A stretch of DNA of 64,000 bases from Styela clava (lineage: Eukaryota; Chordata; Ascidiacea; Stolidobranchia; Styelidae). The stretch is from NCBI RefSeq assembly GCF_964204865.1, contig NC_135261.1, positions 10,602,001 through 10,666,000 of the forward strand. Reading direction: 5' to 3'. Position 1 is the stretch's first letter, and each line of letters begins with the position of its first letter. The translations under genes were made by a program, and so were the position numbers. Of the stretch, positions 7,869-64,000 are shown one piece after another. Under the pieces are notes generated by a model. That model was given only the letters and a program-made list of their open reading frames with translations. It searched no databases and was not told where the DNA came from.

Positions 7869-10532
7869 TTATATACATCTGACATATCTGAAGCATCCGT
7901 CATACTTGACAATGCGGTAGGATTTGTACGTGCTAAAAATAGGATTATGTTAAACAGGAAAAAATCTGATTCAATTCAATTACAAAACTAACTAAGACTT
8001 ACCAGAATTGCTTGTAAGCAAAGCAATAAGAAGAAGACGTGGGCAACACGCAGCCATAATTATAGTTGATCTTAAGTTCTCCAAGTTGGACACAGTATGT
8101 ACATTTTAATCCACAAGCATAATGCTCCTTCAGATCACTGAGATGTTTCCCCCAGTCTTGTTCAATCTTGGTCACTATGTCGGTGTGTTCTTTCTTCGTT
8201 TTCTCTTCGTAGGCGTTGTACAATTTTTGAGCTTCGTTGCCGAGGGGTTTGCCCATATAAAATTCAAGCAGTTTCAAATACTGTTCCGTTCTGAGTTGGG
8301 CAATCTAAACATTTTTGCAAGAATTATATAAATATATATACATATTTTAAACACAATTTCACACACACACACTCAACCTTTTCCAATCTTTCTGTAATGC
8401 ATTTCAGTCTTCTTTCAAACCGTTCCGATAAGCACTTTACGTAGCTTCCGATCTTTGTCTTTCTGGTAGATAGGCATGATGTATATTGTGCAACATATTT
8501 GGCAATTCGCTCATTGAGCCTTTGCTCGTGGCAACCAATCATGTCAGTGTATGCCCTGGAAGCGCGAGAAAGGCGCTCCCCAAGCTTTTTTTCATACTCT
8601 GCAATCACTTTTTTCTTTTGTTCGTCCAATGATTTCTGATATTCTTCTAGGGAAGTCAAGTTATCTGCTGTGATGCAATTGTTTCTGGAAATATAAAGAG
8701 CAACTGAGCCAAAAGTCATCTTATGATATACTTATTCATCGTGAAACTTACTGTACTAAGTAATTTGCTTTATAATACGTTATTAAACATTTGTGTCTCT
8801 CATCAACAATCTTTTTGAAAGACTCCAATGCCTTCTGATTAGTTATTTTTGCTTGCGCATACCAATCATCATATGTTTTCTTCATGGATTCAATTATTGT
8901 CTTAGCTTTATTATCAAGGTCTTCTTTGAATTTTTGTTCGATGATATTAACTTCATCTTAAGTGTAATAAAAACATTAAATTCAGTGAAACATAAAAACA
9001 ATTGAGCATAAGTTTAAGGACTTGCACTAACCGGTTTCACATTTTTTCAGCTCCTTGTATTTGATTGTCCTGTATTGGAATTTGTAGGTCAAGAAACGGA
9101 AGCAACTTCTTTGGGTGGTAATTTTGTACGTCCACCATTTCCCGATACTTCGACTATAAAGAAAAAACCAAGAGTAGAATTATATTGATATATACTATTT
9201 ACCTGCCATTTATTTATAATTACCAATTGGTGTAAAATTGACTTCTGCCAAAACAGAGAGTTCCGCCGTATGCGCACTGATAAGCGCATGCGTAGCTTTT
9301 TACAAGTTCTCCGATAGCTGCAGTTAGCTTCGCGGTGTATTCGTCCAACTGTGTTTGATATGATTGAGTTTCTTTAGTTTTGAAAGCCTGCAAAACTTCA
9401 TTAACGTCTGCTCCGTTCTAATCCTCAGAACCTAAATGTAAAGTTCCATTATGAATAAAAGTATGTGCAAAATTCGAAAGAATAGAAAAAACTCACAGTG
9501 GGCTCTGTATATGAGTTTTTGGAACACTTCAGATCTCTGTTTCACGATGGCTTCCATGACACATTTATATTTTGTCTCGTACTCTGTCACGCGCTTTTCG
9601 AGAACTTTTTTGTATTCTTCTATTTTAGCTAAACGAGTGTTGAAGCATGTAACAGACCTGAAATAAGAAAGGTTCGAATTTTTTGTTCTCTTGTAAACGA
9701 TCTTTTGAACTTACAGTAACCAACCTCTCCACAAGTTTTTTGTGATATTCCTGCACACAAGCGAATCTTTTCTGCATGTCCTCGTTATAATTTTTTTTTG
9801 CCTCTCCCAACAATGAATCTAGTTTTGTATTATATTTTTCAATAGCCTTCTTGTTGGTCTCCTTCATTTCTTCTGACTCTTCCTGCAATCCCGTAATTCT
9901 AAAAATTCACGATGTTAGTAATTTGAGTAAGAAAAGAATACGTAAGAAAGAATTGTAAGAAGAAATACAAACTTCAAATACTGCTTTGTATATTCCTCGA
10001 TAGCGTCTTCGTGCTTTGTCTTTGCCTCGGTATTTTGATTTGATGCAGTTTCAACCCAATCATCATATTTTTGTTGCATATCAAGATATATTTTATCGGC
10101 CACTTCTTTCAATTGTTTTTTAACTTTAGTTTCAAAAACAGCGACCGTCATCTCTATAATACAAAAATTCATGCCTAAAAATGTGTGTTTCTCAAATTAT
10201 TCAGCAAAACTTATCAAGATACAATTCAGAATTACCTTCGAATCCATCCTCTGTGCATTTCTCTCCTGGATAGCTCTTCAGAACATTAGAGTAATATTTC
10301 GTTGTGAACCAAGCAGGACAGTAGTAGCTTCGGAAACTGTAGCATCCGTAATTGATTCGGTAAAATTGTCCGACATTGTAAATAACATATCCGCAATGAC
10401 TCGGTTGGTATAGAGCGGCATTGGCAACCTGTAAACATTATCATTTAGGCAAAATTGATAAAAAGAAACGAAGGTCAATATTTATCAAATACTTACGGCC
10501 AAACAGCCTAGAAGTAACAATAAAATCTTCAT
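7869..10532 (-). pseudogene. Array gene copy 1: secreted Cys-rich/coiled-coil protein, interrupted by a nonsense codon
   Basis: Exons (transcript order): 10532-10497, 10428-10236, 10153-9973, 9898-9725, 9657-9497, 9431-9224, 9153-9032, 8956-8752, 8684-8378, 8304-8003, 7932-7869, all GT-AG with consistent phases, 651 codons including the final stop. The product starts with signal peptide MKILLLLLGCLAVANA and otherwise matches copies 2-6. In exon 6 the codon read as Trp (TGG, SEDWNG) elsewhere is TAG here (plus strand CTA, 9418-9420), which would cut the protein near residue 252 of 650. The exon 4 donor is also weakened (GTTGGT). Many differences from the inner copies change amino acids, for example four in the last Cys-rich block. 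It is probably dead or recently truncated. A TATATATA box lies 58 bases before the start codon and the poly(A) signal is kept. Confidence 0.75.
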
Positions 10533-10589
10533 GATCGTCTTTATTCAGGTTGTTGAACAACGACTTGTCGAATCCCTGTTGTGCGCTTG

Positions 10590-10597
10590 TATATATA
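10590..10597 (-). promoter_or_regulatory. TATA box, gene copy 1
   Basis: TATATATA starting 58 bases upstream of the ATG. With initiation about 30 bases downstream the 5' leader would be short and unspliced. Confidence 0.6.
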
Positions 10598-12214
10598 GGA
10601 TTTCTTCCCTCTCTTCAAAATCCAAGTACCAGCTCCGTTAGGTTTTGATGTTACTTTAGTGAGCGCTTGTCTCGACCACAATGATTGAAATTGTCGAAGC
10701 GCAACAAATGTTTACCTCGAATCGCTATGCTGTAGTTATAACAGAAAGTTTATTTCATTTAAATCTTCTATCAATGTGCATTTAGTAAAAATGTAATTGT
10801 TAGTTAGTCTTTTTATTGTGAAGTACATTATTTTTCAACTAATAAGATACCACCTCGACATAGCTATTCACTTTATCAGTACGCATTGTTTATATAAATA
10901 TAACTTCAGGGTTGAAGATAGTTAGTCAATAGCTATTACATCCAATTGAACAACATTACTAAAAAAAAATAGAAGTTTTTCAACAACACTTTATTTTTAT
11001 TATTCACTCTTTGGTATACGCATACAATTGTTTTAACAGCAAAATGTACGACTTTTGAATCATAGATTGATTGACGTTCTCATGCTTGACAGCGTCAATC
11101 AATCAAAATAATTTTCTGATCATATAAGCATTAACAATGTATCTGGAATAGCCATAATGAATGGACACTGTAATATGAGTTATTCGGACATGAATTTTGC
11201 ACACGAAGAATATTTCACTCGTTGTCAGTGGTATTGGAGTTGGGAACTATCTTTTCACCTCCAAAATGATAAAGCGGAAATTAGTGTAGAATACTCCAAT
11301 TAATTTAAAAATGAATTTTATGTTCTGTTTATTTGCTGGCATTTAAACATATATATATATCTAACGCCAACGACAACCTCTAAATGAAAAGATAACGTTT
11401 GTATTAATATCGGGATCGACACAAAACAGAATTATACAGAACTCAACGACGTTCGTCGACAACACCAATAAAGTCGAAATATCCAGTTTCATAACGTTTC
11501 GTCATAGGTCTCAAAGTCGAAAATTTTATTTCCGAATTCGGAATTCTCAAAACATTCGAATCCTACTTGAACTATGTAAAGTTGAAAAGTACTAAATATT
11601 TTTAGTGTATTTCCATCATATTCAAGGCAAAAACACAAAATGTTGAAATAAATACCAATTTTGAATATTTATATATTTATAATCAAGAGCTGTCATATAT
11701 CACAAATAAACCATTTGTTTTTGACGAAGCACTCATATCCTTATGTTAGAACAAGCAGTTTATTTTGCATATTCGTATGCAAGTAAACCGTTGATGTTTC
11801 GATAGATTGATTGACGTTGTCATTCTCCGAGAATACTGAATCCCAAAAGAATATTTCAACTACTTACCTAGCATCTAGCGGACAGTTTCATATCGGGCGC
11901 CTTTAAATATATGGACTTTAAGATATTTTTTTTGCAATTCGAAACAAATTTCCAAACATCATCAATATTTCCCGGATTCTCCTCATGCATAAATATTTCT
12001 ATTTCTGAAAATATTCAATATGCTAATGTGCAGCTCGACTTTTGACTCGCTTCAAATATTGTTTGACAACGTCAATCAAACAAAAAATGTCATTGTTTAG
12101 ATAATAGATGCTCAAAAATTGTATGCGAAACAATGTTTGTGATTGCACCCTGGAAGAAGTGGATAATTGAGAATCGAAGGTCAGCCATCATCAGAATTTG
12201 TTAGAACTCGTCAG
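10598..12214. other. Non-coding end of unit 1
   Basis: 1.6 kb between the gene promoter and the next unit. It holds a perfect 12-base inverted repeat (GATTGATTGACG 11065-11076 and its complement 11093-11104), a 14-base palindrome TTCCGAATTCGGAA at 11530-11543, and the inverted-repeat element at 11805-12081. A 48-codon open frame at 11157-11303 is open in other units too, but its differences mostly change amino acids, so I do not call it a gene. Confidence 0.5.
11805..12081. mobile_element. MITE-like short element bounded by inverted repeats (unit 1)
   Basis: GATTGATTGACGTTGTCA (11805-11822) is matched in reverse complement by TGACAACGTCAATCAAAC (12064-12081), with one mismatch, around 241 bases with no coding potential. 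Equivalent pairs occur at 19862-20137 and 27927-28202 and in later units. The same GATTGATTGACG core also occurs as a close hairpin about 0.7 kb upstream. No clear target-site duplication, so the element status is tentative. Confidence 0.4.
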
Positions 12215-12605
12215 TTGTCAAATATCATATTAATTAAAAGGATATATCATGATATTAGTTCATGAAATGGTTTATTTTTACTGCCTAATAACCCGTAACC
12301 AAGACTGAAACAAGCAAATTAATTTCAGTGGAGACCCTAAAGCCGATGATCAATCTGTTGGGGTAGCTTTGCTCGTACTGGAGAGCCTTCTAATGGGTTA
12401 GAAAACTCTCTTGGAGATTTTCCTGACTGGTAACAGTATTCGTCACCATCAATGACGAAGCGGAAGTATCCTCGAAACAATTTTCAGGAGATGATTCATG
12501 ATTTTGATTAAGGTGAACTTAGGATGATTAATTTGCCAATAATTAAATTATGAATTGAAATACATATTTATAACTGAACGTATTTGCAATCGTAGAGGTA
12601 GAAAT

Positions 12606-13171
12606 TAATAACATACATATATTCGATTTAGCAAAAAAATAAATATGACCAACATGTCCTTATAATATCCTGGGCATCATTTTTTTTTATCGTCACTTTT
12701 CAATTCCCCAAGTTTTACGTTAACTTAAAATAACCAAATCGGTCTGACTTTAGCACATTGTACAGTTTTACTATCAACTGCCGAGCAGGATAATGGTGTT
12801 CAGCACAACACCATCGTCGGCAATATACTGTGTGAAGGCATGCATCTTTCAAAAATCCCATATTTTATTTCACCAAAGACCAAAATTTGATGGAAAATCC
12901 AATTTTTAAAAAATTAAGTTAAAATTTAAATTAATCTAAATTAAGAAATGAAGACCTAAAATTGAACATTTCATATGACATTGAATTATTTTGCACAAAT
13001 CCTGGAATAACATAATATACATATGTACGATTCATAACATGCATTAAGTGGCAAAACTGTTCTAATCATACAATATTAAATAGCTGATCCCACCTTTGGG
13101 GGTAGCCCACAGAATTTCTTTATTATTTCTCCTTTTTTAAGGGCTGATCCAAAGATGTCTAACTTGATTAT
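12606..13171. repeat. 566-bp insertion in the dead esterase intron
   Basis: The live intron 10 reads GGTAGAAAT then CCGTTCATG without a break. Units 2-7 carry about 570 bases between these words. I see no terminal repeats or coding potential. It contains the TA (12761-12762 here) used as pogo-element target in other units. Confidence 0.6.
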
Positions 13172-13429
13172 CCGTTCATTTTGTAGTTTACAGGTGGCAA
13201 GAGTTATAGCTTGCATATTTTAAAATCGTTTAAATCTTCTAAACCATTTCATGATTTTTTTACACGAAGTAACAACAAACCATGACTGGGAAAGTCTGCG
13301 AATCAAAGCTCCGGAAGGGTGAAATTGAGGGAAGGGTACGAGCAGGATATATGTGACTTGTGGGAAGGTATAGGATTCTGTATGGATTCAATACTGTTAC
13401 CGACAACAACAGATACCGTAGTTGATGTA

Positions 13430-13489
13430 GAACGGATCCACCGATTCACCGAACGGATTCGGACAGGCCGAACGGATTCACCGATTTTC
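13430..13489 (+). repeat. Small GAACGGATTC minisatellite in dead exon 11
   Basis: GAACGGATYC occurs three times in 60 bases, interleaved with CACCGATT. The live exon 11 has a single GAACGGATCCACCGATT at this point, so the segment expanded after duplication. It is shared by units 2-7. Confidence 0.6.
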
Positions 13490-14433
13490 ACAACGAGTAA
13501 TGCAAGATCAGACTCTCAACATTCATTTATTTTTATTTTTTCCTGCCTGCTTTCACTTTTATGGTTGAACTTGAATGTCCAGGAAGAATAACCTATTATA
13601 TTGATAACTGATAATAATACGTCTTTTGGCTTAAATATATTATTTAATTACCTCATTAATTAATTACCTTTTCTTTAATGTACTTTATTTCAGCTATCTG
13701 AGAATCACTCTACAATACATGAACTAACAACCTCTATTGACTTGAATAAAATACACGCAGTCAATACATCTTGCTATATGAAATCCTATTTCATAAATAT
13801 ATATACCAAATAGGCTATGATGGATGCTTACCTGCCCTTTCACCCCAATTAATTCATTTATATATTTTACCATATTTCCATGCATATTTTGAGGTTGTTT
13901 TTTCGAGTTGCGCCTAAAAGTGGTTTGCGTGTTTAAAACTATAATTTCACATGACATTTAACGGTATTAATTCCGAATGTCAACCCAGGTAGATCCAAAT
14001 TTTAACTTCGTTCCATGACTCCAATATTAGGAAATCGTTTGGGTTACTACTGTTTGATGAATAAAGTTGAATAAAATCCAGAAAAACACATTTAGTGTTA
14101 CAACAACGTACAATGTTTTTGAAATTTGTTCCGGAGAATACAAGCAAACGAACAGTAACCCCAACACCTGTTTTGCATAGTCGTTCCCGAAGTTGGCGAT
14201 TAATCATCAGTGGCTTTAAAAAACTATAATGACGTCATATTGGATATAACGCATTGAGCCAAATAAAAAAATAACGTTGTACTTAAGTTTTCAATTTGTA
14301 AACTGAATTTATTAAGATCGGATGCTCTTGATTCTTCTGATTATATTCTCCAAGTTTTTGTTACTCTAAGTTTAGGTAATGTTTCCTAATTATCAATAAA
14401 ATACCAGTCTTTCGAAACAGGAATGTACTAGAG

Positions 14434-15941: not shown

Positions 15942-18589
15942 TTATATACATCTGACATATCTGAAGCATCCGTCATACTTGACAATGCGGTAGGATTTGT
16001 ACGTGCTGAAATAGGATTATGTTAAACAGGAAAAACTCTGATTCAATTCAATTACAAAACTAACTAAGACTTACCAGAATTGCTTGTAAGCAAAGCAATA
16101 AGAAGAAGACGTGGGCAACACGCATCGATAATTATAGGTGATCTTAAGTTCTCGAAGTTGCACACAGTATGTACATTTGAATCCACAAGCATAATGCTCC
16201 TTCAGATCACTGAGATGTTTCCCCCAGTCTTGTTCAATCTTGGTCACTATGTCGGTGTGTTCTTTCTTCGTTTTCTCTTCGTAGGCGTTGTACAATTTTT
16301 GAGCTTCGTTGCCGAGTGGTTTGCCCATATAAAATTCAAGCAGTTTCAAATACTGTTCCGTTCTGAGTTGGGCAATCTAAACATTTTTGCAAGAATTATA
16401 TAAATATAAATACATATTTTAAACAAAATGTCACGCTGTCAACCTTTTCCAATCTCTCTGTAATGCATTTCAGTCTTCTTTCAAACCGTTCCGATAAGCA
16501 CTTTACATAGCTTTCGATCTTTGTCTTTCTGGTAGATAGGCATGTTGCATATTGTGCAACATATTTGGCAATTCGCTCATTGAGCCTTTGCTCGTGGCAA
16601 CCAATCATGTCAGTGTATGCCTTGGAAGCGCGAGAAAGGCGCTCCCCAAGCTTTTTTTCATACTCTGCAATCGCTTTTTTCTTTTGTTCGTCCAATGATT
16701 TCTGATATTCTTCTAGGGAAGTCAAGTTATCTGCTGTGATGCAATTGTTTCTGGAAATATAAAGAGCAACTGAGCCAAATGACATCTTATGATATACTTA
16801 TTCACCGTGACACTTACTGTACTAAGTAATTTGCTTTATAATACGTTATCAAACATTTGTGTCTCTCATCAACAATCTTTTTGAAAGACTCCAATGCCTT
16901 CTGATTAGTTATTTTTGCTTGCGCATACCAATCATCATATGTTTTCTTCATGGATTCAATTATTGTCTTAGCTTTATTATCAAGGTCTTCTTTGAATTTT
17001 TGTTCGGTGATATTAACTTCATCTTAAGTGTAATAAAAACATTAAATTCAGTGAAACATAAAGACAATTGAGCAAACGTTTTAGGACTTGCACTAACCGG
17101 TTACACATTTTTTCAGCTCCTTGTATTTGATTGTCCTGTATTGAAATTTGTAGGTCAAGAAACGGAAGCAACTTCTTTGGGTAGTAATTTTGTACGTCCA
17201 CCATTTCCCGATACTTCGACTATAAAGAAAAAACCAAGAGTAGAATTATATTGATATATACTATTTACCTGCCATTTATTTATAATTACCAATTGGTGTA
17301 AAATTGACTTCTGCCAAAACAGAGAGTTCCGCCGTATGCGCACTGATAAGCGCATGCGTAGCTTTTTACAAGTTCTCCGATAGCTGCAGTTAGCTTCGCG
17401 GTGTATTCGTCCAACTGTGTTTGATATGATAAAGTTTCTTTAGTTTTGAAAGCCTCCAAAACTGCATTAACGTCTGCTCCGTTCCAATCCTCAGAACCTA
17501 AATGTAAAGTTCCATTATGAATAAAAGTATGTGCAAAATTCGAAAGAATAGAAAAAACTTACAATGGGCTCTGTATATGAGTTTTTGGAACACTTCAGAT
17601 CTTTGTTTTACGATGGCTTCCATGACACATTTATATTTTGTCTCGTACTCTGTCACGCGCTTTTCGAGAGCTTTTTTGTATTCTTCTATTTTAGCTAAAC
17701 GAGTGGTGAAGCATGTAACAGACCTGAAATAAGAAAGGTTCGAATTTTAGTTCTCTTGTAAACGGACTTTTAAACTTACAGTAACTCACCTCTCGACAAG
17801 TTTTTCGTGATATTCCAGCACACAAGCGTATCTTTTCTTCATGTCATCGTTATAATTTTTTTTTGCTTCTTCCAACAATGAATCTAGTTTTGTATTATAA
17901 TTTTCAATAGCCTTCTTGTTGGTCTCCTTCATTTCTTCTGACTCTTCCTGCAATCCCGTAATTCTAAAAATTCACGATGTTAGTAATTTGAGTAGGAAAA
18001 GAATACGTAAGAAAGAATTGTAAGAAGAAATACAAACTTCAAATACTGCTTTGTATATTCCTCGATAGCGTCTTCGTGCTTTGTCTTTGCCTCGGTATTT
18101 TGATTTGTTGCAGTTTCAACCCAATCTTCATATTTTTGTTGCATATCAAGATATATTTTATCGGCCACTTCTTTCAATTGTTTTTTAACTTCAGTTTCAA
18201 AAACGGCGACCGTCATCTCTATAATACAAAAAATCATGCCTCAAAATGTGTGTTTCTCAAATTATTCAGAAAAACATACAATTCAGAATTACCTTCGAAT
18301 CCATCCTCTGTGCATTTCTCTCCTGGATAGCTCTTCAGAACATTAGAGTAATATTTCGTTGTGAACCAAGCAGGACAGTAGTAGCTTCGGAAACTGTAGC
18401 ATCCGTAATTGATTCGGTAAAATTGTCCGACATTGTAAGTAACATATCCACAATGACTCGGTTGGTATAGAGCGGCATTGGCAACCTGTAAACAATATAA
18501 TTTAGGCAAAATTGATAAAAAGAAACGAAGGGCACTATTTATCAAATACTTACGGCCAAACAGCCTAGAAGTAACAATAAAATCTTCAT
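15942..18589 (-). CDS. Array gene copy 2: secreted Cys-rich/coiled-coil protein, 11 exons, intact
   Basis: Same 11-exon structure as copy 1 (exon 1 18589-18554, last exon 16005-15942), 650 residues, no stops. Order: signal peptide 1-16; Cys/Tyr-rich head 17-76 (RINYGCYSFRSYYC); charged helical stalk about 77-295; second Cys block about 296-357 (YACAYQCAYGG, RSCFRFLTYK); second stalk 358-595; final Cys block 596-650 (HYACGFKCTYC, YDGCFRYVRC). Stalks are rich in Glu/Lys with Tyr and regular Leu/Ile, so coiled coil is likely; cysteines inside them could cross-link chains. It has the best exon 4 donor of all copies (GTGAGT). Private residues in exon 4 (KKRYACVLEYHEK). I know no family with this layout; an extracellular structural or adhesive role is inference. 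Confidence 0.8.
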
Positions 18590-18646
18590 GATCGTCTTTA
18601 TTCAGGTTGTTGAACAACGACTTGTCGAATCCCTGTTGTGCGCTTG

Positions 18647-20137: not shown

Positions 20138-20384
20138 AAAACATGTCATTGTTTAGATAATAGATGCTCAAAAATTGTAAGCAAAACAATGTTTGTGATT
20201 ACACCCTGTAGGAAGTGGATAATTGAGAACCGAAGATCAGCCATCATCAGAATTTGTTAAAACTCGTCAGTTGTCAAATATCATATTAATTAAAAGGCTA
20301 TATCATGATATTAGTTCATGAAATGGTTTATTTTTACTGCCTAATAACCGGTAACCAAGACTGAAACAAGCAAATTAAATTCAG

Positions 20385-24005: not shown

Positions 24006-26654
24006 TTATATACATCTGACATATCTGAAGCATCCGTCATACTTGACAATGCGGTAGGATTTGTACGTGCTGAAATAGGATTATGTTAAACAGGAAAAAC
24101 TCTGATTCAATTCAATTACAAAACTAACTAAGACTTACCAGAATTGCTTGTAAGCAAAGCAATAAGAAGAAGACGTGGGCAACACGCATCGATAATTATA
24201 GGTGATCTTAAGTTCTCGAAGTTGCACACAGTATGTACATTTGAATCCACAAGCATAATGCTCCTTCAGATCACTGAGATGTTTCCCCCAGTCTTGTTCA
24301 ATCTTGGTCACTATGTCGGTGTGTTCTTTCTTCGTTTTCTCTTCGTAGGCGTTGTACAATTTTTGAGCTTCGTTGCCGAGTGGTTTGCCCATATAAAATT
24401 CAAGCAGTTTCAAATACTGTTCCGTTCTGAGTTGGGCAATCTAAACATTTTTGCAAGAATTATATAAATATAAATACATATTTTAAACAAAATGTCACGC
24501 TGTCAACCTTTTCCAATCTCTCTGTAATGCATTTCAGTCTTCTTTCAAACCGTTCCGATAAGCACTTTACGTAGCTTTCGATCTTTGTCTTTCTGGTAGA
24601 TAGGCATGTTGCATATTGTGCAACATATTTGCCAATTCGCTCATTGAGCCTTTGCTCGTGGCAACCAATCATGTCAGTGTATGCCTTGGAAGTGCGAGAA
24701 AGGCGCTCCCCAAGCTTTTTTTCATACTCTGCAATCGCTTTTTTCTTTTGTTCGTCCAATGATTTCTGATATTCTTCTAGGGAAGTCAAGTTATCTGCTG
24801 TGATGCAATTGTTTCTGGAAATATAAAGAGCAACTGAGCCAAATGTCATCTTATGATATACTTATTCACCGTGACACTTACTGTACTAAGTAATTTGCTT
24901 TATAATACGTTATCAAACATTTGTGTCTCTCATCAACAATCTTTTTGAAAGACTCCAATGCCTTCTGATTAGTTATTTTTGCTTGCGCATACCAATCATC
25001 ATATGTTTTCTTCATGGATTCAATTATTGTCTTAGCTTTATTATCAAGGTCTTCTTTGAATTTTTGTTCGGTGATATTAACTTCATCTTAAGTGTAATAA
25101 AAACATTAAATTCAGTGAAACATAAAGACAATTGAGCAAACGTTTTAGGACTTGCACTAACCGGTTACACATTTTTTCAGCTCCTTGTATTTGATTGTCC
25201 TGTATTGAAATTTGTAGGTCAAGAAACGGAAGCAACTTCTTTGGGTAGTAATTTTGTACGTCCACCATTTCCCGATACTTCGACTATAAAGAAAAAACCA
25301 AGAGTAGAATTATATTGATATATACTATTTACCTGCCATTTATTTATAATTACCAATTGGTGTAAAATTGACTTCTGCCAAAACAGAGAGTTCCGCCGTA
25401 TGCGCACTGATAAGCGCATGCGTAGCTTTTTACAAGTTCTCCGATAGCTGCAGTTAGCTTCGCGGTGTATTCGTCCAACTGTGTTTGATATGATAAAGTT
25501 TCTTTAGTTTTGAAAGCCGCCAAAACTGCATTAACGTCTGCTCCGTTCCAACCCTCAGAACCTAAATGTAAAGTTCCATTATGAATAAAAGTATGTGCAA
25601 AATTCGAAAGAATAGAAAAAACTTACAATGGGCTCTGTATATGAGTTTTTGGAACACTTCAGATCTTTGTTTTACGATGGCTTCCATGACACATTTATAT
25701 TTTGTCTCATACTCTGTCACGCGCTTTTCGAGAGCTTTTTTGTATTCTTCTATTTTAGCTAAACGAGTGTTGAAGCATGTAACAGACCTGAAATAAGAAA
25801 GGTTCGAATTTTTTGTTCTCTTGTAAACGAACTTTTGAACTTACAGTAACACACCTCTCGACAAGTTTTTTGTGATATTCCTGCACACAAGCGAATCTTT
25901 TCTGCATGTCATCGTTATAATTTTTTTTTGCTTCTTCCAACAATGAATCTAGTTTTGTATTATAATTTTCAATAGCCTTCTTGTTGGTCTCCTTCATTTC
26001 TTCTGACTCTTCCTGCAATCCCGTAATTCTAAAAATTCACGATGTTAGTAATTTGAGTAAGAAAAGAATACGTAAGAAAGAATTGTAAGAAGAAATACAA
26101 ACTTCAAATACTGCTTTGCATATTCCTCGATAGCGTCTTCGTGCTTTGTCTTTGCCTCGGTATTTTGATTTGTTGCAGTTTCAACCCAATCCCCCTTTTT
26201 TTGTTGCATATCAAGATATATTTTATCGGCCACTTCTTTCAATTGTTTTTTAACTTCAGTTTCAAAAACGGCCACCGTCATCTCTATAATACAAAAAATC
26301 ATGCCTCAAAATGTGTGTTTCTCAAATTATTCAGAAAAACATACAATTCAGAATTACCTTCGAATCCATCCTCTGTGCATTTCTCTCCTGGATAGCTCTT
26401 CAGAACATTAGAGTAATATTTCGTTGTGAACCAAGCAGGACAGTAGTAGCTTCGGAAACTGTAGCATCCGTAATTGATTCGGTAAAATTGTCCGACATTG
26501 TAAGTAACATATCCACAATGACTCGGTTGGTATAGAGCGGCATTGGCAACCTGTAAACATTATAATTTAGGCAAAATTGATAAAAAGAAACGAAGGGCAC
26601 TATTTATCAAATACTTACGGCCAAACAGCCTAGAAGTAACAATAAAATCTTCAT
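24006..26654 (-). CDS. Array gene copy 3: secreted Cys-rich/coiled-coil protein, intact
   Basis: Exons: 26654-26619, 26550-26358, 26283-26103, 26028-25855, 25787-25627, 25561-25354, 25283-25162, 25086-24882, 24814-24508, 24440-24139, 24069-24006. Copies 4, 5 and 6 have the same exons shifted by 11067, 22134 and 30213. It gives 650 open residues. In exon 3 the YEDW motif of copy 2 is replaced by KGDW through a 6-base block change. The exon 4 donor is GTGTGT, with a stronger GTAAGT just downstream that would shift frame. Private changes: exon 6 SEGWNG, exon 9 RTSKAY and ERIGKY. Same secreted, modular protein as copy 2; function unknown. Confidence 0.8.
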
Positions 26655-26711: not shown

Positions 26712-26718
26712 TATATAT
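26712..26718 (-). promoter_or_regulatory. TATA box, gene copy 3
   Basis: ATATATA, 58 bases before the ATG. Confidence 0.6.
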
Positions 26719-28890
26719 GGGATTTCTTCCCTCTCTTCAAAATCCAAGTACCAGCTCCTTTATGTTTTAATGTTACTTTAGTGAGCTCTTATCTCGACCA
26801 CAATGATTGAAATTGTCAGAAGCGCAACAAATGTTTACCTCGAATCGCTATGCCGTAGTTATAACAGAAAGTTCAGTTTATTTCATTTAAATCTTCCATC
26901 ATTGTGCATTTAGTAAAAAGGTAATTGTTAATTAATCTTTTTATTGTGAAGTACATTATTTTTCAACTAATAAGATACCACTTCGACATAGCTATTCACT
27001 TCATCAGTACGCATTGTTTATATAAATATAACTTCAGGGTTGAAGATAGTTAGTCAATAGCTATTACATCCAATTGAACAGCATTACTTAAAAAAATAGA
27101 AGTTTTTCAACAACACTTTATTTTTATTATTCACTCTTTGGTATACGCATACAATTGTTTTAACAGCAAAATGTACGACTTTTGAATCATAGATTGATTG
27201 ACGTTCTCATGCTTGACAGCGTCAATCAATCAGAAAAATTTCCTGATCATATAAGCAATAACAATGTATCTGGAATAGCCATAATGAATGAACACTGTAA
27301 TATGAGTTATTCGGACATGGATTGTGCACACGAAGAATATTTCACTCGTTGTCAGTGGTATTGGAGTTGGGAATTATCTTTTCACCTCCAAAATGATAAA
27401 TCGGAAATTGGTGTAGAATACTCCAATTAATTTAAAAATGAATTTTATGTTCTGTTTAATTGCTGGCATTTAAACATGTATATATCTAACGCCAACGACA
27501 ACCTCTAAATGAAAAGATAACGATTGTATTAATATCGGGATCGACACAAAACAGGATTATACAGAACTCGACGACGTTCGTCGACAACACCAATAAAGTC
27601 GAAATATCCAGTTTCATAACGTTTCGTCATAGGTCTCAAAGTCGAAAATTTTATTTCCGAATTCGGAATTCTCAAAACATTTGAATCCTACTTCAATATG
27701 ATAAAGTTGGAAAGTACTAAATATTTTTAGTGTATTTCCATCATATTCAAAGCAAAAACACAAAATGTTGAGTTATAAATTATATTTTTAATCAAGAGCT
27801 GCCATATCCGTATAAATAATATCACAAATAAACCATTTGTTTTTGACGAAGCACTTATATCCTTATGTTAGAACAAGCAGTTTATTTTGAATATTCGTAT
27901 GCAAGTAAAACGTTGATGTTTCGATAGATTGATTGACGTTGTCATTCTCCGAGAATACTGAATCCCAAAAGAATATTTCAACTACTTACCTAGCATCTAG
28001 TGGACAGTTTCATATCGGGCGCTTTTAAATATATGGACTTCAAGATATTTTTTTGTAATTCGAGACAAATTTCCAAACATCATCAATATTTCCCGGATTC
28101 TCCTCATGCATAAATATTTCTATTTCTGAAAATATTCAATATGCTAATGTGCAGCTCGACTTTTGACGCGCGTCAAATATTGTTTGACAACGTCAATCAA
28201 ACTAAACATGTCATTGTTTAGATAATAGATGCTCAAAAATTGTAAGCAAAACAATGTTTGTGATTACACCCTGTAGGAAGTGGATAATTGAGAACCGAAG
28301 ATCAGCCATCATCAGAATTTGTTAAAACTCGTCAGTTGTCAAATATCATATTAATTAAAAGGCTATATCATGATATTAGTTCATGAAATGGTTTATTTTT
28401 ACTGCCTGATAACCGGTAACCAAGACTGAAACAAGCAAATTAAATTCAGAGGAAACCCTACAGACGACGATCAATCTGTTGGGGTAGCTTTGCTCGTACT
28501 GGAGAGCCTGCTGATGGGTTAGAAAACTCTCTTGGAGATTTTCCTGACTGGTAACAGTATTCGTCACCATCAATGACAAAGCGGTATCTCGAAAGTATCC
28601 TCGAAACAATTTTCAGGGGATGAATCATGATTTTGATCAAGGTGAACTTATGATGAATAATTTGCCAATAATTAAATCATGAATTGAAATACATATTTAT
28701 AACTGAACGTATTTGCAATCGTAGAGGTAGAAATTAATAACATACATATATTCAATTTAGAAAAAAAAAGGTTATGACCAACATGTCCTCATAATATCCT
28801 GAGCATCATTTTTTTTATCGTCACTTTTCAATTCCCCAAGTTTTACGTTAACTTAAAATAACCAAATCGGTCTGACTTTAGCACATTGTG

Positions 28891-31890: not shown

Positions 31891-33564
31891 TACAGTTATA
31901 CTATCAACTGCCGAGCAGGATAATGGTGTTTAGCACAACACCATCGTCGGCAATATATTGTGTGCAGGCATGCATCTTTCAAAAATCCCATATTTTATTT
32001 CACCAACGACCAAAATTTGATGAAAAATCCGATTTGTTAAAAAATCATCTAAATTAAGAAATGAAGACCTAAAATTGAACATTTCATATGACATTGAATT
32101 ATTTTGCACAAATCCTGGAATAACATAATATAAATATGTACGATTCATAACATGCATTAAGTGGGAAAACTGTTCTAATCATAAAATATTAAATAGCTGA
32201 TCCCACCTTTGGGGGTAGCCCACAGAATTTCTCTATTATTTCTCCTTTTTTTTAAGGGCTGATCCAAAGATGTCTATCTTGATTATCCGTTCATGTTGTA
32301 GTTTACAGGTGGCAAGAGTTATAGCTTGCATATTCTAAAATCGTTTAAATCTTCTAAACCATTTCATGATTTTTTTACACGAAGTAACAACAAACCATGA
32401 CTGGGAAAGTCTGCGAATCAAAGCTCCGGAAGGGTGAAATTGAGGGAAGGGTACGAGCAGGATATATGTGACTTGTGGGAAGGTATAGGATTCTGTATGG
32501 ATTCAATACTGTTACCGACAACAACAGATACCGTAGTTGATGTAGAACGGATCCACCGATTCACCGAACGGATTCGGACAGGCCGAACGGATTCACCGAT
32601 TTTCACAACGAGTAATGCAAGATCAGACTCTCAACATTCATTTATTTTTATTTTTTCCTGCCTGCTTTCACTTTTATGGTTGAACTTGAATGTCCAGGAA
32701 GAATAACTTATTATATTGATAACTGATAATAATACGTCTTTTGGCTTAAATATATAATTTAATTACCTCATTAATTAATTACCTTTTCTTTAATGTACTT
32801 TATTTCAGCTATCTGAGAATCACTCTACAATACATGAACTAACAACCTCTATTGACTTGAATAAAATACACGCAGTCAATACATCTTGCTATATGAAATC
32901 CTATTTCATAAATATATATACCAAATAGGCTATGATGGATGCTTACCTGCCCTTTCACCCCAATTAATTCATTTATATATTTTACCATATTTCCATGCAT
33001 ATTTTGAGGTTGTTTTTTTGAGTTGCGCCTAAAAGTGGTTTGCGTGTTTAAAACTATAATTTCACATGACATTTAACGGTATTAATTCCGAATGTCAACC
33101 CAGGTAGATCCAAATTTTAACTTCGTTCCATGACTCCAATATTAGGAAATCGTTGCGTCTTCAAAAAGTTTGGGTTACTACTGTTTGACGAATAAAGTTG
33201 AATAAAATCCAGAAAAACACATTTAGTGTTACAACAACGTACAATGTTTTTGAAATTTGTTCCGGAGAATACAAGCAAACGAACAGTAACCCCAACACCT
33301 GTTTTGCATAGTCGTTCCCGAAGTTGGCGATTAATCATCAGTGGCTTTAAAAAACTATAATGACGTCATATTGGATATAACGCATTGAGCCAAATAAAAA
33401 AATACCGTTGTACTTAAGTTTTCAATTTGTAAACTGAATTCATTAAGATCGGATGCCCTTGATTCTTCTGATTATATTCTCCAAGTTTTTGTTACTCTAA
33501 GTTTAGGTAATGTTTCCTAATTATCAATAAAATACCAGTCTTTCGAAACAGGAATGTACTAGAG

Positions 33565-42957: not shown

Positions 42958-44631
42958 TACAGTTATACTATCAACTGCCGAGCAGGATAATGGTGTTTAG
43001 CACAACACCATCGTCGGCAATATATTGTGTGCAGGCATGCATCTTTCAAAAATCCCATATTTTATTTCACCAACGACCAAAATTTGATGAAAAATCCGAT
43101 TTGTTAAAAAATCATCTAAATTAAGAAATGAAGACCTAAAATTGAACATTTCATATGACATTGAATTATTTTGCACAAATCCTGGAATAACATAATATAA
43201 ATATGTACGATTCATAACATGCATTAAGTGGGAAAACTGTTCTAATCATAAAATATTAAATAGCTGATCCCACCTTTGGGGGTAGCCCACAGAATTTCTC
43301 TATTATTTCTCCTTTTTTTTAAGGGCTGATCCAAAGATGTCTAACTTGATTATCCGTTCATGTTGTAGTTTACAGGTGGCAAGAGTTATAGCTTGCATAT
43401 TCTAAAATCGTTTAAATCTTCTAAACCATTTCATGATTTTTTTACACGAAGTAACAACAAACCATGACTGGGAAAGTCTGCGAATCAAAGCTCCGGAAGG
43501 GTGAAATTGAGGGAAGGGTACGAGCAGGATATATGTGACTTGTGGGAAGGTATAGGATTCTGTATGGATTCAATACTGTTACCGACAACAACAGATACCG
43601 TAGTTGATGTAGAACGGATCCACCGATTCACCGAACGGATTCGGACAGGCCGAACGGATTCACCGATTTTCACAACGAGTAATGCAAGATCAGACTCTCA
43701 ACATTCATTTATTTTTATTTTTTCCTGCCTGCTTTCACTTTTATGGTTGAACTTGAATGTCCAGGAAGAATAACTTATTATATTGATAACTGATAATAAT
43801 ACGTCTTTTGGCTTAAATATATAATTTAATTACCTCATTAATTAATTACCTTTTCTTTAATGTACTTTATTTCAGCTATCTGAGAATCACTCTACAATAC
43901 ATGAACTAACAACCTCTATTGACTTGAATAAAATACACGCAGTCAATACATCTTGCTATATGAAATCCTATTTCATAAATATATATACCAAATAGGCTAT
44001 GATGGATGCTTACCTGCCCTTTCACCCCAATTAATTCATTTATATATTTTACCATATTTCCATGCATATTTTGAGGTTGTTTTTTCGAGTTGCGCCTAAA
44101 AGTGGTTTGCGTGTTTAAAACTATAATTTCACATGACATTTAACGGTATTAATTCCGAATGTCAACCCAGGTAGATCCAAATTTTAACTTCGTTCCATGA
44201 CTCCAATATTAGGAAATCGTTGCGTCTTCAAAAAGTTTGGGTTACTACTGTTTGACGAATAAAGTTGAATAAAATCCAGAAAAACACATTTAGTGTTACA
44301 ACAACGTACAATGTTTTTGAAATTTGTTCCGGAGAATACAAGCAAACGAACAGTAACCCCAACACCTGTTTTGCATAGTCGTTCCCGAAGTTGGCGATTA
44401 ATCATCAGTGGCTTTAAAAAACTATAATGACGTCATATTGGATATAACGCATTGAGCCAAATAAAAAAATACCGTTGTACTTAAGTTTTCAATTTGTAAA
44501 CTGAATTCATTAAGATCGGATGCCCTTGATTCTTCTGATTATATTCTCCAAGTTTTTGTTACTCTAAGTTTAGGTAATGTTTCCTAATTATCAATAAAAT
44601 ACCAGTCTTTCGAAACAGGAATGTACTAGAG

Positions 44632-46139: not shown

Positions 46140-48788
46140 TTATATACATCTGACATATCTGAAGCATCCGTCATACTTGACAATGCGGTAGGATTTGTAC
46201 GTGCTGAAATAGGATTATGTTAAACAGGAAAAACTCTGATTCAATTCAATTACAAAACTAACTAAGACTTACCAGAATTGCTTGTAAGCAAAGCAATAAG
46301 AAGAAGACGTGGGCAACACGCATCGATAATTATAGGTGATCTTAAGTTCTCGAAGTTGCACACAGTATGTACATTTGAATCCACAAGCATAATGCTCCTT
46401 CAGATCACTGAGATGTTTCCCCCAGTCTTGTTCAATCTTGGTCACTATGTCGGTGTGTTCTTTCTTCGTTTTCTCTTCGTAGGCGTTGTACAATTTTTGA
46501 GCTTCGTTGCCGAGTGGTTTGCCCATATAAAATTCAAGCAGTTTCAAATACTGTTCCGTTCTGAGTTGGGCAATCTAAACATTTTTGCAAGAATTATATA
46601 AATATAAATACATATTTTAAACAAAATGTCACGCTGTCAACCTTTTCCAATCTCTCTGTAATGCATTTCAGTCTTCTTTCAAACCGTTCCGATAAGCACT
46701 TTACATAGCTTTCGATCTTTGTCTTTCTGGTAGATAGGCATGTTGCATATTGTGCAACATATTTGGCAATTCGCTCATTGAGCCTTTGCTCGTGGCAACC
46801 AATCATGTCAGTGTATGCCTTGGAAGCGCGAGAAAGGCGCTCCCCAAGCTTTTTTTCATACTCTGCAATCGCTTTTTTCTTTTGTTCGTCCAATGATTTC
46901 TGATATTCTTCTAGGGAAGTCAAGTTATCTGCTGTGATGCAATTGTTTCTGGAAATATAAAGAGCAACTGAGCCAAATGTCATCTTATGATATACTTATT
47001 CACCGTGACACTTACTGTACTAAGTAATTTGCTTTATAATACGTTATCAAACATTTGTGTCTCTCATCAACAATCTTTTTGAAAGACTCCAATGCCTTCT
47101 GATTAGTTATTTTTGCTTGCGCATACCAATCATCATATGTTTTCTTCATGGATTCAATTATTGTCTTAGCTTTATTATCAAGGTCTTCTTTGAATTTTTG
47201 TTCGGTGATATTAACTTCATCTTAAGTGTAATAAAAACATTAAATTCAGTGAAACATAAAGACAATTGAGCAAACGTTTTAGGACTTGCACTAACCGGTT
47301 ACACATTTTTTCAGCTCCTTGTATTTGATTGTCCTGTATTGAAATTTGTAGGTCAAGAAACGGAAGCAACTTCTTTGGGTAGTAATTTTGTACGTCCACC
47401 ATTTCCCGATACTTCGACTATAAAGAAAAAACCAAGAGTAGAATTATATTGATATATACTATTTACCTGCCATTTATTTATAATTACCAATTGGTGTAAA
47501 ATTGACTTCTGCCAAAACAGAGAGTTCCGCCGTATGCGCACTGATAAGCGCATGCGTAGCTTTTTACAAGTTCTCCGATAGCTGCAGTTAGCTTCGCGGT
47601 GTATTCGTCCAACTGTGTTTGATATGATAAAGTTTCTTTAGTTTTGAAAGCCTCCAAAACTGCATTAACGTCTGCTCCGTTCCAATCCTCAGAACCTAAA
47701 TGTAAAGTTCCATTATGAATAAAAGTATGTGCAAAATTCGAAAGAATAGAAAAAACTTACAATGGGCTCTGTATATGAGTTTTTGGAACACTTCAGATCT
47801 TTGTTTTACGATGGCTTCCATGACACATTTATATTTTGTCTCATACTCTGTCACGCGCTTTTCGAGAGCTTTTTTGTATTCTTCTATTTTAGCTAAACGA
47901 GTGTTGAAGCATGTAACAGACCTGAAATAAGAAAGGTTCGAATTTTTTGTTCTCTTGTAAACGAACTTTTGAACTTACAGTAACACACCTCTCGACAAGT
48001 TTTTTGTGATATTCCTGCACACAAGCGAATCTTTTCTGCATGTCATCGTTATAATTTTTTTTTGCTTCTTCCAACAATGAATCTAGTTTTGTATTATAAT
48101 TTTCAATAGCCTTCTTGTTGGTCTCCTTCATTTCTTCTGACTCTTCCTGCAATCCCGTAATTCTAAAAATTCACGATGTTAGTAATTTGAGTAAGAAAAG
48201 AATACGTAAGAAAGAATTGTAAGAAGAAATACAAACTTCAAATACTGCTTTGCATATTCCTCGATAGCGTCTTCGTGCTTTGTCTTTGCCTCGGTATTTT
48301 GATTTGTTGCAGTTTCAACCCAATCCCCCTTTTTTTGTTGCATATCAAGATATATTTTATCGGCCACTTCTTTCAATTGTTTTTTAACTTCAGTTTCAAA
48401 AACGGCCACCGTCATCTCTATAATACAAAAAATCATGCCTCAAAATGTGTGTTTCTCAAATTATTCAGAAAAACATACAATTCAGAATTACCTTCGAATC
48501 CATCCTCTGTGCATTTCTCTCCTGGATAGCTCTTCAGAACATTAGAGTAATATTTCGTTGTGAACCAAGCAGGACAGTAGTAGCTTCGGAAACTGTAGCA
48601 TCCGTAATTGATTCGGTAAAATTGTCCGACATTGTAAGTAACATATCCACAATGACTCGGTTGGTATAGAGCGGCATTGGCAACCTGTAAACATTATAAT
48701 TTAGGCAAAATTGATAAAAAGAAACGAAGGGCACTATTTATCAAATACTTACGGCCAAACAGCCTAGAAGTAACAATAAAATCTTCAT
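46140..48788 (-). CDS. Array gene copy 5: secreted Cys-rich/coiled-coil protein, intact
   Basis: Exon coordinates equal copy 3 plus 22134; 650 open residues. I noticed no private amino-acid change in the exons compared, so it is the nearest to an array consensus: signal peptide, Cys-rich head, stalk with KGDW in place of YEDW, second Cys block, second stalk with the kept YDDW, final Cys block. It shares EEYAKQY in exon 3 with copies 3 and 4, against EEYTKQY in copies 1, 2 and 6. Confidence 0.8.
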
Positions 48789-54218: not shown

Positions 54219-56867
54219 TTATATACATCTGACATATCTGAAGCATCCGTCATACTTGACAATGCGGTAGGATTTGTACGTGCTGAAATAGGATTATGTT
54301 AAACAGGAAAAACTCTGATTCAATTCAATTACAAAACTAACTAAGACTTACCAGAATTGCTTGTAAGCAAAGCAATAAGAAGAAGACGTGGGCAACACGC
54401 ATCGATAATTATAGGTGATCTTAAGTTCTCGAAGTTGCACACAGTATGTACATTTGAATCCACAAGCATAATGCTCCTTCAGATCACTGAGATGTTTCCC
54501 CCAGTCTTGTTCAATCTTGGTCACTATGTCGGTGTGTTCTTTCTTCGTTTTCTCTTCGTAGGCGTTGTACAACTTTTGAGCTTCGTTGCCGAGTGGTTTG
54601 CCCATATAAAATTCAAGCAGTTTCAAATACTGTTCCGTTCTGAGTTGGGCAATCTAAACATTTTTGCAAGAATTATATAAATATAAATACATATTTTAAA
54701 CAAAATGTCACGCTGTCAACCTTTTCCAATCTCTCTGTAATGCATTTCAGTCTTCTTTCAAACCGTTCCGATAAGCACTTTACGTAGCTTTCGATCTTTG
54801 TCTTTCTGGTAGATAGGCATGTTGCATATTGTGCAACATATTTGGCAATTCGCTCATTGAGCCTTTGCTCGTGGCAACCAATCATGTCAGTGTATGACTT
54901 GGAAGCGCGAGAAAGGCGCTCCCCAAGCTTTTTTTCATACTCTGCAATCGCTTTTTTCTTTTGTTCGTCCAATGATTTCTGATATTCTTCTAGGGAAGTC
55001 AAGTTATCTGCTGTGATGCAATTGTTTCTGGAAATATAAAGAGCAACTGAGCCAAATGTCATCTTATGATATACTTATTCACCGTGACACTTACTGTACT
55101 AAGTAATTTGCTTTATAATACGTTATCAAACATTTGTGTCTCTCATCAACAATCTTTTTGAAAGACTCCAATGCCTTCTGATTAGTTATTTTTGCTTGCG
55201 CATACCAATCATCATATGTTTTCTTCATGGATTCAATTATTGTCTTAGCTTTATTATCAAGGTCTTCTTTGAATTTTTGTTCGGTGATATTAACTTCATC
55301 TTAAGTGTAATAAAAACATTAAATTCAGTGAAACATAAAGACAATTGAGCAAACGTTTTAGGACTTGCACTAACCGGTTACACATTTTTTCAGCTCCTTG
55401 TATTTGATTGTCCTGTATTGAAATTTGTAGGTCAAGAAACGGAAGCAACTTCTTTGGGTAGTAATTTTGTACGTCCACCATTTCCCGATACTTCGACTAT
55501 AAAGAAAAAACCAAGAGTAGAATTATATTGATATATACTATTTACCTGCCATTTATTTATAATTACCAATTGGTGTAAAATTGACTTCTGCCAAAACAGA
55601 GAGTTCCGCCGTATGCGCACTGATAAGCGCATGCGTAGCTTTTTACAAGTTCTCCGATAGCTGCAGTTAGCTTCGCGGTGTATTCGTCCAACTGTGTTTG
55701 ATATGATAAAGTTTCTTTAGTTTTGAAAGCCTCCAAAACTGCATTAACGTCTGCTCCGTTCCAATCCTCAGAACCTAAATGTAAAGTTCCATTATGAATA
55801 AAAGTATGTGCAAAATTCGAAAGAATAGAAATAACTTACAATGGGCTCTGTATATGAGTTTTTGGAACACTTCAGATCTTTGTTTTACGATGGCTTCCAT
55901 GACACATTTATATTTTGTCTCATACTCTGTCACGCGCTTCTCGAGAGCTTTTCTGTATTCTTCTATTTTAGCTAAACGAGTGTTGAAGCATGTAACAGAC
56001 CTGAAATAAGAAAGGTTCGAATTTTTTGTTCTCTTGTAAACGAACTTTTGAACTTACAGTAACACACCTCTCGACAAGTTTTTTGTGATATTCCTGCACA
56101 CAAGCGAATCTTTTCTGCATGTCATCGTTATAATTTTTTTTTGCTTCTTCCAACAATGAATCTAGTTTTGTATTATAATTTTCAATAGCCTTCTTGTTGG
56201 TCTCCTTCATTTCTTCTGACTCTTCCTGCAATCCGGTAATTCTAAAAATTCACGATGTTAGTAATTTGAGTAAGAAAAGAATACGTAAGAAAGAATTGTA
56301 AGAAGAAATACAAACTTCAAATACTGCTTTGTATATTCCTCGATAGCGTCTTCGTGCTTTGTCTTTGCCTCGGTATTTTGATTTGTTGCAGTTTCAACCC
56401 AATCCCCCTTTTTTTGTTGCATATCAAGATATATTTTATCGGCCACTTCTTCCAATTGTTTTTTAACTTCAGTTTCAAAAACGGCCACCGTCATCTCTAT
56501 AATACAAAAAATCATGCCTCAAAATGTGTGTTTCTCAAATTATTCAGAAAAACATACAATTCAGAATTACCTTCGAATCCATCCTCTGTGCATTTCTCTC
56601 CTGGATAGCTCTTCAGAACATTAGAGTAATATTTCGTTGTGAACCAAGCAGGACAGTAGTAGATTCGAAAACTGTAGCATCCGTAATTGATTCGGTAAAA
56701 TTGTCCGACATTGTAAGTAACATATCCACAATGACTCGGTTGGTATAGAGCGGCATTGGCAACCTGTAAACATTATAATTTAGGCAAAATTGATAAAAAG
56801 AAACGAAGGGCAATATTTATCAAATACTTACGGCCAAACAGCCTAGAAGTAACAATAAAATCTTCAT
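54219..56867 (-). CDS. Array gene copy 6: secreted Cys-rich/coiled-coil protein, intact
   Basis: Exon coordinates equal copy 3 plus 30213; 650 open residues. Private changes: FRIYYC for FRSYYC in the Cys-rich head, KKQLEEVAD for KKQLKEVAD in exon 3, an Arg for Lys in exon 5, and RASKSY in exon 9. It keeps KGDW but has EEYTKQY like copies 1 and 2, so its exon 3 is a mosaic of the two groups. Exon 4 donor GTGTGT. Role unknown, as for the other copies. Confidence 0.8.
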
Positions 56868-56924
56868 GATCGTCTTTATTCAGGTTGTTGAACAACGACT
56901 TGTCGAATCCCTGTTGTGCGCTTG

Positions 56925-56931
56925 TATATAT
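56925..56931 (-). promoter_or_regulatory. TATA box, gene copy 6
   Basis: ATATATA, 58 bases before the ATG. Confidence 0.6.
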
Positions 56932-62170: not shown

Positions 62171-62176
62171 TTTATT
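62171..62176 (-). promoter_or_regulatory. Poly(A) signal, gene copy 7
   Basis: Minus-strand AATAAA 106 bases after the stop codon. Confidence 0.6.
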
Positions 62177-62281
62177 GTCAATATCAGCAGATGGTAAAGG
62201 CAATTGGCATAAATTCATCAGCCTAATCTAAAACTAAGATATTTCCATGGTCGTTTGTCGTTCGGTTGATGTCGGCGGTGT

Positions 62282-64000
62282 TTATATACATCTGACATAT
62301 CTGAAGCATCCGTCATACTTGACAATGCGGTAGGATTTGTACGTGCTGAAATAGGATTATGTTAAGCAGGAAAAACTCTGATTCAATTCAATTACAAAAC
62401 TAACTAAGACTTACCAGAATTGCTTGTAAGCAAAGCAATAAGAAGAAGACGTGGGCAACACGCATCGATAATTATAGGTGATCTTAAGTTCTCGAAGTTG
62501 CACACAGTATGTACATTTGAATCCACAAGCATAATGCTCCTTCAGATCACTGAGATGTTTCCCCCAGTCTTGTTCAATCTTGGTCACTATGTCGGTGTTT
62601 TCTTTCTTCGTTTTCTCTTCGTAGGCGTTGTACAATTTTTGAGCTTCGTTGCCGAGTGGTTTGCCCATATAAAATTCAAGCAGTTTCAAATACTGTTCTG
62701 TTCTGAGTTGGGCAATCTAAACATTTTTGCAAGAATTATATAAATATAAATTCATATTTTAAACAAAATGTCACGCTGTCAACCTTTTCCAATCTCTCTG
62801 TAATGCATTTCAGTCTTCTTTCAAACCGTTCCGATAAGCACTTTACGTAGCTTTCGATCTTTGTCTTTCTGGTAGATAGGCATGTTGCATATTGTGCAAC
62901 ATATTTGGCAATTCGCTCATTGAACCTTTGCTCGTGGCAACCAATCATGTCAGTGTATGCCTTGGAAGCGCGAGAAAGGCGCTCCCCAAGCTTTTTTTCA
63001 TACTCTGCAATCGCTTTTTTCTTTTGTTCGTCCAATGATTTCTGATATTCTTCTAGGGAAGTCAAGTTATCTGCTGTGATGCAATTGTTTCTAGAAATAT
63101 AAAGAGCAACTGAGCCAAATGTCATCTTATGATATACTTATTCACCGTGACACTTACTGTACTAAGTAATTTGCTTTATAATACGTTATCAAACATTTGT
63201 GTCTCTCATCAACAATCTTTTTGAAAGACTCCAATGCCTTCTGATTAGTTATTTTTGCTTGCGCATACCAATCATCATATGTTTTCTTCATGGATTCAAT
63301 TATTGTCTTAGCTTTATTATCAAGGTCTTCTTTGAATTTTTGTTCGGTGATATTAACTTCATCTTAAGTGTAATAAAAACATTAAATTCAGTGAAACATA
63401 AAGACAATTGAGCAAACGTTTTAGGACTTGCACTAACCGGTTACACATTTTTTCAGCTCCTTGTATTTGATTGTCCTGTATTGAAATTTGTAGGTCAAGA
63501 AACGGAAGCAACTTCTTTGGGTAGTAATTTTGTACGTCCACCATTTCCCGATACTTCGACTATAAAGAAAAAACCAAGAGTAGAATTATATTGATATATA
63601 CTATTTACCTGCCATTTATTTATAATTACCAATTGGTGTAAAATTGACTTCTGCCAAAACAGAGAGTTCCGCCGTATGCGCACTGATAAGCGCATGCGTA
63701 GCTTTTTACAAGTTCTCCGATAGCTGCAGTTAGCTTCGCGGTGTATTCGTCCAACTGTGTTTGATATGATTGAGTTTCTTTAGTTTTGAAAGCCTCCAAA
63801 ACTGCATTAACGTCTGCTCCGTTCCAATCCTCAGAACCTAGATGTAAAGTTCCATTGTGAATAAAATTATGTTCAAAATTCGAAAGAAAAGAAAAAACTT
63901 ACAATGGGCTCTGTATATCAGTTTTTGGAACACTTGAGATCTCTGTTTTACGATGGCTTCCATGACACATTTATATTTTGTCTCGTACTCTGTCACGCGC
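62282..64000 (-). CDS. Array gene copy 7: secreted Cys-rich/coiled-coil protein, 5' end outside the window
   Basis: Exons 6-11 are complete, and exon 5 is present from its 3' end (63903) to the window edge. All visible exons are open. Private changes: KKENTD for KKEHTD in exon 10, QRFNER for QRLNER in exon 9, RSQVFQ for RSEVFQ in exon 5. From about 63768 onward it departs from copies 2-6 and shares several bases with copy 1, for example TGATTGAG for TGATAAAG in exon 6. Whether it is a full gene cannot be seen. Confidence 0.75.

Follow-up and report, generated by a model that had tools for sequence, protein, structure and literature searches.

The window analysed here is a stretch of 64,000 nucleotides from the ascidian Styela clava (assembly GCF_964204865.1, contig NC_135261.1; C16:10602001-10666000). 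It carries a tandem array of genes for an apparently secreted protein rich in tyrosine and cysteine. An earlier note on this DNA claimed seven direct copies on one strand, and a 300-nt reference stretch indeed matches seven times on the minus strand at 97-98% identity, with copy starts at 7937, 16009, 24073, 35140, 46207, 54286 and 62349. The 11-exon gene and the 650-residue protein proposed there were recovered as well. In copy 3 (24006..26654), the reference model, the joined exons comprise 1953 coding bases and encode 650 residues, with GT/AG at each internal junction. Its exons lie, from first to last, at 26654-26619, 26550-26358, 26283-26103, 26028-25855, 25787-25627, 25561-25354, 25283-25162, 25086-24882, 24814-24508, 24440-24139 and 24069-24006.

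The model was built on copy 3 and transferred by alignment to the remaining copies in the window, again with GT/AG at the internal junctions. Copy 2 (15942..18589; 11 exons, 650 residues), copy 4 (35073..37721), copy 5 (46140..48788) and copy 6 (54219..56867), all on the minus strand, are open. Copy 7 (62282..64000, minus strand) is cut at its 5' end by the end of the window, and becomes an open 1953-nt reading frame once the genome past the window is added (L078). Copy 1 (7869..10532, minus strand) also has 11 exons, contains a premature stop at codon 253 and is a probable pseudogene. The units are spaced by about 8.06 kb, except two units of 11.07 kb, each with a 3.0-kb transposon. The flanking signals are nearly as uniform as the earlier note had stated. 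Among the six copies with their start in the window, TATATA occupies the same place in five (copies 2 to 6; 26712..26717 in copy 3, minus strand), where it begins 63 bases before the ATG, and not 58 as reported; the figure 58 is probably its end position, which is -58 in these five copies. In copy 1 the motif begins at -65. Similarly, AATAAA lies 106 bases past the stop in six of the seven copies and 113 bases past it in copy 1.

The protein is built by internal duplication. A Tyr/Cys block followed by a stalk occurs twice and is closed by a further block, giving three blocks and two stalks (A and B) of about 215 residues each. Its start resembles a signal peptide by eye. Exon 2 (26358..26550 in copy 3, minus strand) encodes the remainder of this signal-peptide-like stretch and block 1, and exon 9 (24508..24814, minus strand) encodes the core of stalk B, which consists of nine 11-residue repeats. 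The AlphaFold2 model of exon 9, made with the copy 5 sequence, is a single long helix. The stalks contain no proline in stalk A and one in stalk B. They had been described as coiled coils, a claim that finds no support in the heptad sense: the stalk cores repeat every 11 residues, not 7. In the cores (exons 4-5 and exon 9) of the four proteins compared below, the hydrophobic period is 11/3 in 8 of 8 segments. The power at period 3.5 is 0.2-2.4 versus 7.0-21.8 at the peak, and the heptad coiled coil was rejected for these cores.

The genome searched comprises 376.6 Mb in 379 contigs. A search with exon-9 DNA gave 25 matches, all on C16: 14 belong to the array of the window (array 1; minus strand, 10.610-10.724 Mb, 14 copies) and 11 to another array (array 2; plus strand, 11.378-11.497 Mb, 11 copies), 0.65 Mb from array 1. 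The full-length C16 copies read amount to 24 (13 in array 1, 11 in array 2); the counts leave out a copy without its 5' end (L015) and an array 2 slot expected from spacing in which no gene matches (L027). Each of the 24 has exactly 1953 coding bases, which rules out chance or artefact, and the 28 mature cysteines are identical in all of them. The frame is open to codon 650 in 21 copies. Premature stops occur in copy 1, the first of its array, and in L025 and L026, which end their array and lie outside the window.

A 64-residue exon-2 query (E up to 10) widened the family to 41 matches: 24 on C16, 10 on C17 and 7 on C3. The C17 array (7.295-7.398 Mb, 10 copies) has an exon 2 that is 48% identical (E 3e-14) and a spacing of about 12.1 kb, broken by two shorter intervals (8.4 and 8.9 kb). 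The C3 array (18.754-18.818 Mb, 7 copies) has an exon 2 that is 52% identical (E 3e-14 to 4e-14) and a spacing of about 10.6 kb. One whole gene was read from each. The encoded proteins contain 654 (C17) and 652 (C3) residues, and both genes have 11 exons with the same intron phases as C16 (0,1,2,2,1,2,1,2,0,2). TATA-like boxes stand at -68 from the ATG in the C17 gene (L079) and at -60 in the C3 gene (L080), close to the 63-65 of C16. The C17 and C3 proteins are 32.0% identical to each other, and each is 34-38.5% identical to C16. In all six other C3 copies, and in four of the other nine C17 copies, exon 9 has an open frame, keeps its splice sites and differs at 0-2 of 307 positions.

The arrays thus look homogeneous internally and diverged from each other, a pattern that outside C16 is drawn from exons 2 and 9. 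This is expected if each array was amplified and homogenised separately, and the four arrays would then offer a compact case of paralogs with such a history. The whole-protein genome search scored 68 of 203 candidates, and these were filled by the C16 arrays. Additional members of the family, possibly acidic, may exist.

The paralogs differ strongly in charge. The net charge of the mature protein (K+R-D-E) is +22 and +7 in the two C16 arrays, +68 in C17 and +226 in C3. The C3 protein, with a mature length of 636 residues, contains 23.1% Arg and 13.5% Lys (36.6% Lys+Arg) and 1.1% Asp+Glu, and its calculated isoelectric point is 11.9. The gap is greatest in the stalks, which carry -6 and +9 in C16 array 1 versus +82 and +85 in C3. 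The 87 acidic sites of C16 are Lys or Arg in C3 at 49 positions and still acidic at 6; acidic residues are absent from exon 9 in all seven C3 copies. Of the 207 hydrophobic C16 sites, 171 are also hydrophobic in C3. The Tyr content is steady (8.3-8.8% across all four proteins), and the columns common to the four include 14 Cys (one within the signal-like stretch), 65 aromatic and 26 Tyr. If secreted as it appears to be, the C3 protein would be unusual in composition in itself and useful as a natural polycation.

The comparison of the two C16 arrays indicates constraint. Across 132 pairs (12 x 11, copy 7 excluded and three copies with stops included), the mean nonsynonymous divergence (dN) is 0.041 and the mean synonymous divergence (dS) 0.095, a ratio of 0.43. 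Between the two consensus sequences, the signal and block 1 contain no nonsynonymous and six synonymous changes, and the dN/dS of the stalks is about 0.5 and 0.7. The divergence is also uneven along the unit. In 200-column alignment windows, the part from the promoter to exon 9 differs by 2.5-8.0%, against 6.6-11.4% upstream, 7.2-12.5% in the surroundings of exon 10 and 4.2-8.0% downstream; the divergence of the introns is 1.5-8.0% in introns 1-9 and 10.8% in intron 10. The stretch of reduced divergence corresponds to about 26974 to 24500 of the window, introns included. Gene conversion between the arrays, which lie 0.65 Mb apart in opposite orientation, could be behind the lower divergence of the middle. 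The moderate downstream divergence does not demand it.

The family was described in the earlier note as unrecognised, and it stays so within the Pfam and PDB libraries, where no convincing match was found. In Pfam, the C16 protein scores best with Apolipoprotein (16.3 bits versus a cut-off of 90, E 0.0083) and the C17 protein matches Apolipoprotein A1/A4/E (PF01442) with 15.3 bits versus the same cut-off of 90. All listed Pfam matches of these two proteins are below their cut-offs. For the C3 protein, the matches listed in the pooled table of the paralogs have E-values of at least 0.0048, which is also the best Apolipoprotein E-value of the three paralogs. The PDB yielded weak helical matches only, with a best E of 0.062 by sequence and 0.026 by profile. 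No match was obtained for exon 9 in a phage collection, and the genome searched gave no COX1 match in a test of the mitochondrial code. Text searches of the literature found no such family described, although an unnamed sequence escapes a text search.

The closest known systems resemble the array protein in part. Apolipoproteins are built on an 11-residue amphipathic helical period, with 22-residue repeats punctuated by proline. PF01442 and the stalk cores share the long amphipathic helix and the 11-residue period, together with the weak profile match; the score is, however, far below the cut-off, the proline punctuation is missing from the nearly proline-free stalks, and the Tyr/Cys blocks and a charge of up to +226 are found here. 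The oikosins of Oikopleura houses are extracellular structural proteins restricted to tunicates and associated with cellulose; they are alike by general description. In sandcastle-worm cement, oppositely charged proteins and sulfated polysaccharide form a coacervate, and the cement has basic proteins bearing 3,4-dihydroxyphenylalanine (DOPA) (PMC12621633). Compared by description, its proteins Pc-1 and Pc-2 are likewise secreted, basic, Tyr-containing and structural, but have glycine-rich repeats, unlike the helical 11-residue repeats and Cys blocks seen here (PMC12621633). Tuphoxin, an ascidian phenol oxidase candidate, is a blood-cell product assumed by its authors to be a tunic matrix component (PMC9395347); by its description it is a putative enzyme and possible Tyr oxidiser, and it is not proposed as a relative.

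The genome also contains the cellulose locus of tunicates. A GH6 match on C9 (35.4 bits in the genome search) led to a locus (L067) with Glyco_trans_2_3 (60.9 bits), Cellulose_synt (28.3 bits) and Glyco_hydro_6 (42.4 bits), in which a GT2/cellulose synthase open reading frame (ORF) stands 1.8 kb before GH6 on the same strand. To our knowledge, the proteins that organise tunic cellulose are poorly defined. No metazoans other than tunicates are known to make cellulose, and ascidian CesA carries GT2 and GH6 domains (PMC10986139). The CesA-GH6 locus therefore identifies the source of this genome as a tunicate, which makes the tunic or some other ascidian secretion a better candidate than silk. Sulfated polysaccharides occur in ascidian body walls (PMC3366676), the Halocynthia tunic contains cellulose and sulfated chitin (PMC10649753), and phenol oxidase activity is present in tunic and morula cells (PMC9395347). 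The excerpted tunic proteome of Ciona, Molgula and Microcosmus (PMC7401272) holds nothing linkable to the array protein.

The most likely product of the arrays is a structural protein made in bulk for the extracellular space, in the tunic or in a similar external secretion, with a probability of roughly 0.45. The demand for much product claimed in the earlier note gains support from paralogs 32-38% identical that are tandemly amplified at three chromosomal places; the expression itself, and the role among silk, cement, tunic, mucus and egg coat, are what we infer. High copy number would be maintained to make the bulk protein. The blocks would cross-link via disulfides and oxidised tyrosine, and the stalks would serve as rods or as amphipathic assembly faces. 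The paralogs would differ chiefly in charge, with sulfated polysaccharide as the ligand of the polycationic C3 form, and a charge-driven assembly as in sandcastle-worm cement is proposed by analogy. Expression, tissue, polymer binding and cross-linking, and with them every step past secretion, are put forward from the genes. A more specific form of this proposal is doubtful: one extracellular helical-rod fold with 11-residue repeats would have been copied to three chromosomal places, and the paralogs, sulfated glycans and cellulose would build the tunic as a polyelectrolyte complex. The fold would have been amplified at each place and the charge varied from near zero to +226, with the hydrophobic core kept. 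If true, this would define a previously unknown class of matrix protein in animals, with a charge series written in paralogous arrays. In any case, a high-copy, apparently secreted family whose unusual repeat is conserved and whose charges span an extreme range provides concrete genes to test.

Several points weigh against the structural reading. The case rests on sequence, and the signal peptide was called by eye. The protein has no domain tying it to cellulose or glycans, and C17 and C3 are known from one full gene each. Exons 3, 6, 8 and 10 lack the 11/3 period, so the stalks need not form one unbroken rod. The AlphaFold2 model of block 1 has a mean predicted local distance difference test (pLDDT) score of 46.1 and was not used. 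Within the arrays, where dN/dS is 0.46 and 0.73 from small counts, exon and intron divergence are alike and selection is consequently unreadable.

The same gene biology could serve a tissue other than the tunic and yield an abundant secretion linked to reproduction or to larvae, such as an egg coat, a product of test cells or follicles, or an adhesive used by larvae or for attachment. High copy number and a composition rich in Tyr and Lys/Arg agree with such a product, and worm cement, with its coacervation and its basic, DOPA-bearing proteins, offers a precedent for an adhesive; the glycine-rich repeats of Pc-1 and Pc-2 are nevertheless unlike the array protein (PMC12621633), and the locus holds no sign of a link with germ line or adhesive glands, which leaves this alternative unlikely. 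Slightly less likely again is a polycationic, Cys-rich antimicrobial protein, secreted and stored in haemocytes as part of blood-cell or humoral defence. The +226 of the C3 form and the amphipathic helical cores would suit it, but the protein is large, most copies encode the near-neutral C16 forms and none of the blocks evolves fast, block 1 having an identical amino acid sequence in the two C16 consensuses.

The 11/3 period of the stalk cores, together with Apolipoprotein as the top weak Pfam match (E 0.0083, or 0.0048 for the best paralog), raises the alternative of a lipid-binding plasma protein acting as an exchangeable apolipoprotein through its 11-residue amphipathic helices. It is improbable in view of the 16.3 bits versus a cut-off of 90, the 0 and 1 prolines of the stalks, the 28 mature cysteines and the +226 paralog. 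It is very improbable that unequal crossing-over and transposons drove an amplification that is mostly inert and has little function. Such a history would account for the premature stops in 3 of the 24 full-length C16 copies, the one further 5'-truncated copy and the transposons and retroelements of the spacers, but not for the separate amplification of paralogs at three places with exon structure and frames preserved, nor for a dN/dS of 0.43 between the C16 arrays.

The spacers of the array contain further elements. A DNA transposon of 3003 bp (28890..31892, plus strand) has near-inverted ends and a DDE_1 transposase ORF (29605-31458) that scores 73.2 bits. Another copy (39957..42959, plus strand) is identical across 3003 bases, so the array unit was probably duplicated after the insertion. 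A spacing of 11.1 kb at C16:10705039-10716142 suggests a third copy. Rfam at gathering scores and ARAGORN gave no match within the window.

Beside the array lies a carboxylesterase-like gene (1104..6734, plus strand), called by eye; its ORF 4516-4908 is under the Pfam cut-off. Copies of its 3' exon region occur at 12210..13760 (plus strand; 12210-12605 and 13170-13760). The 12210-12605 type recurs in the spacers near 20266, 28331, 39397, 50464 and 58543, and the 13170-13760 type near 21218, 32285, 43352, 51420 and 59494. The 8-kb unit includes these copies, and the homology with array 2 ends where that part starts. Judged by eye, carboxylesterase-like genes whose products have hydrophobic C-terminal tails are clustered at window positions 1-6899; the tested ORFs are under the Pfam cut-off. 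A related copy is present in L028, and the 3' region of the last gene was captured in the amplified unit.

L031 (C16:10736401-10746400) consists entirely of N and may be an assembly gap. Retroelement-like ORFs (Bel/Pao-like by eye) are found within array 2 and next to it, in L027, L032, L033 and L035; they are the only ORFs seen in L027, seemingly an array 2 slot without the gene. L038, near array 2, has a long open frame that by eye resembles a vasa-type DEAD-box helicase with zinc knuckles, and L037, adjoining array 2, contains a peptidyl-tRNA hydrolase PTH2 ORF (8724-9305, minus strand) that scores 160.5 bits.

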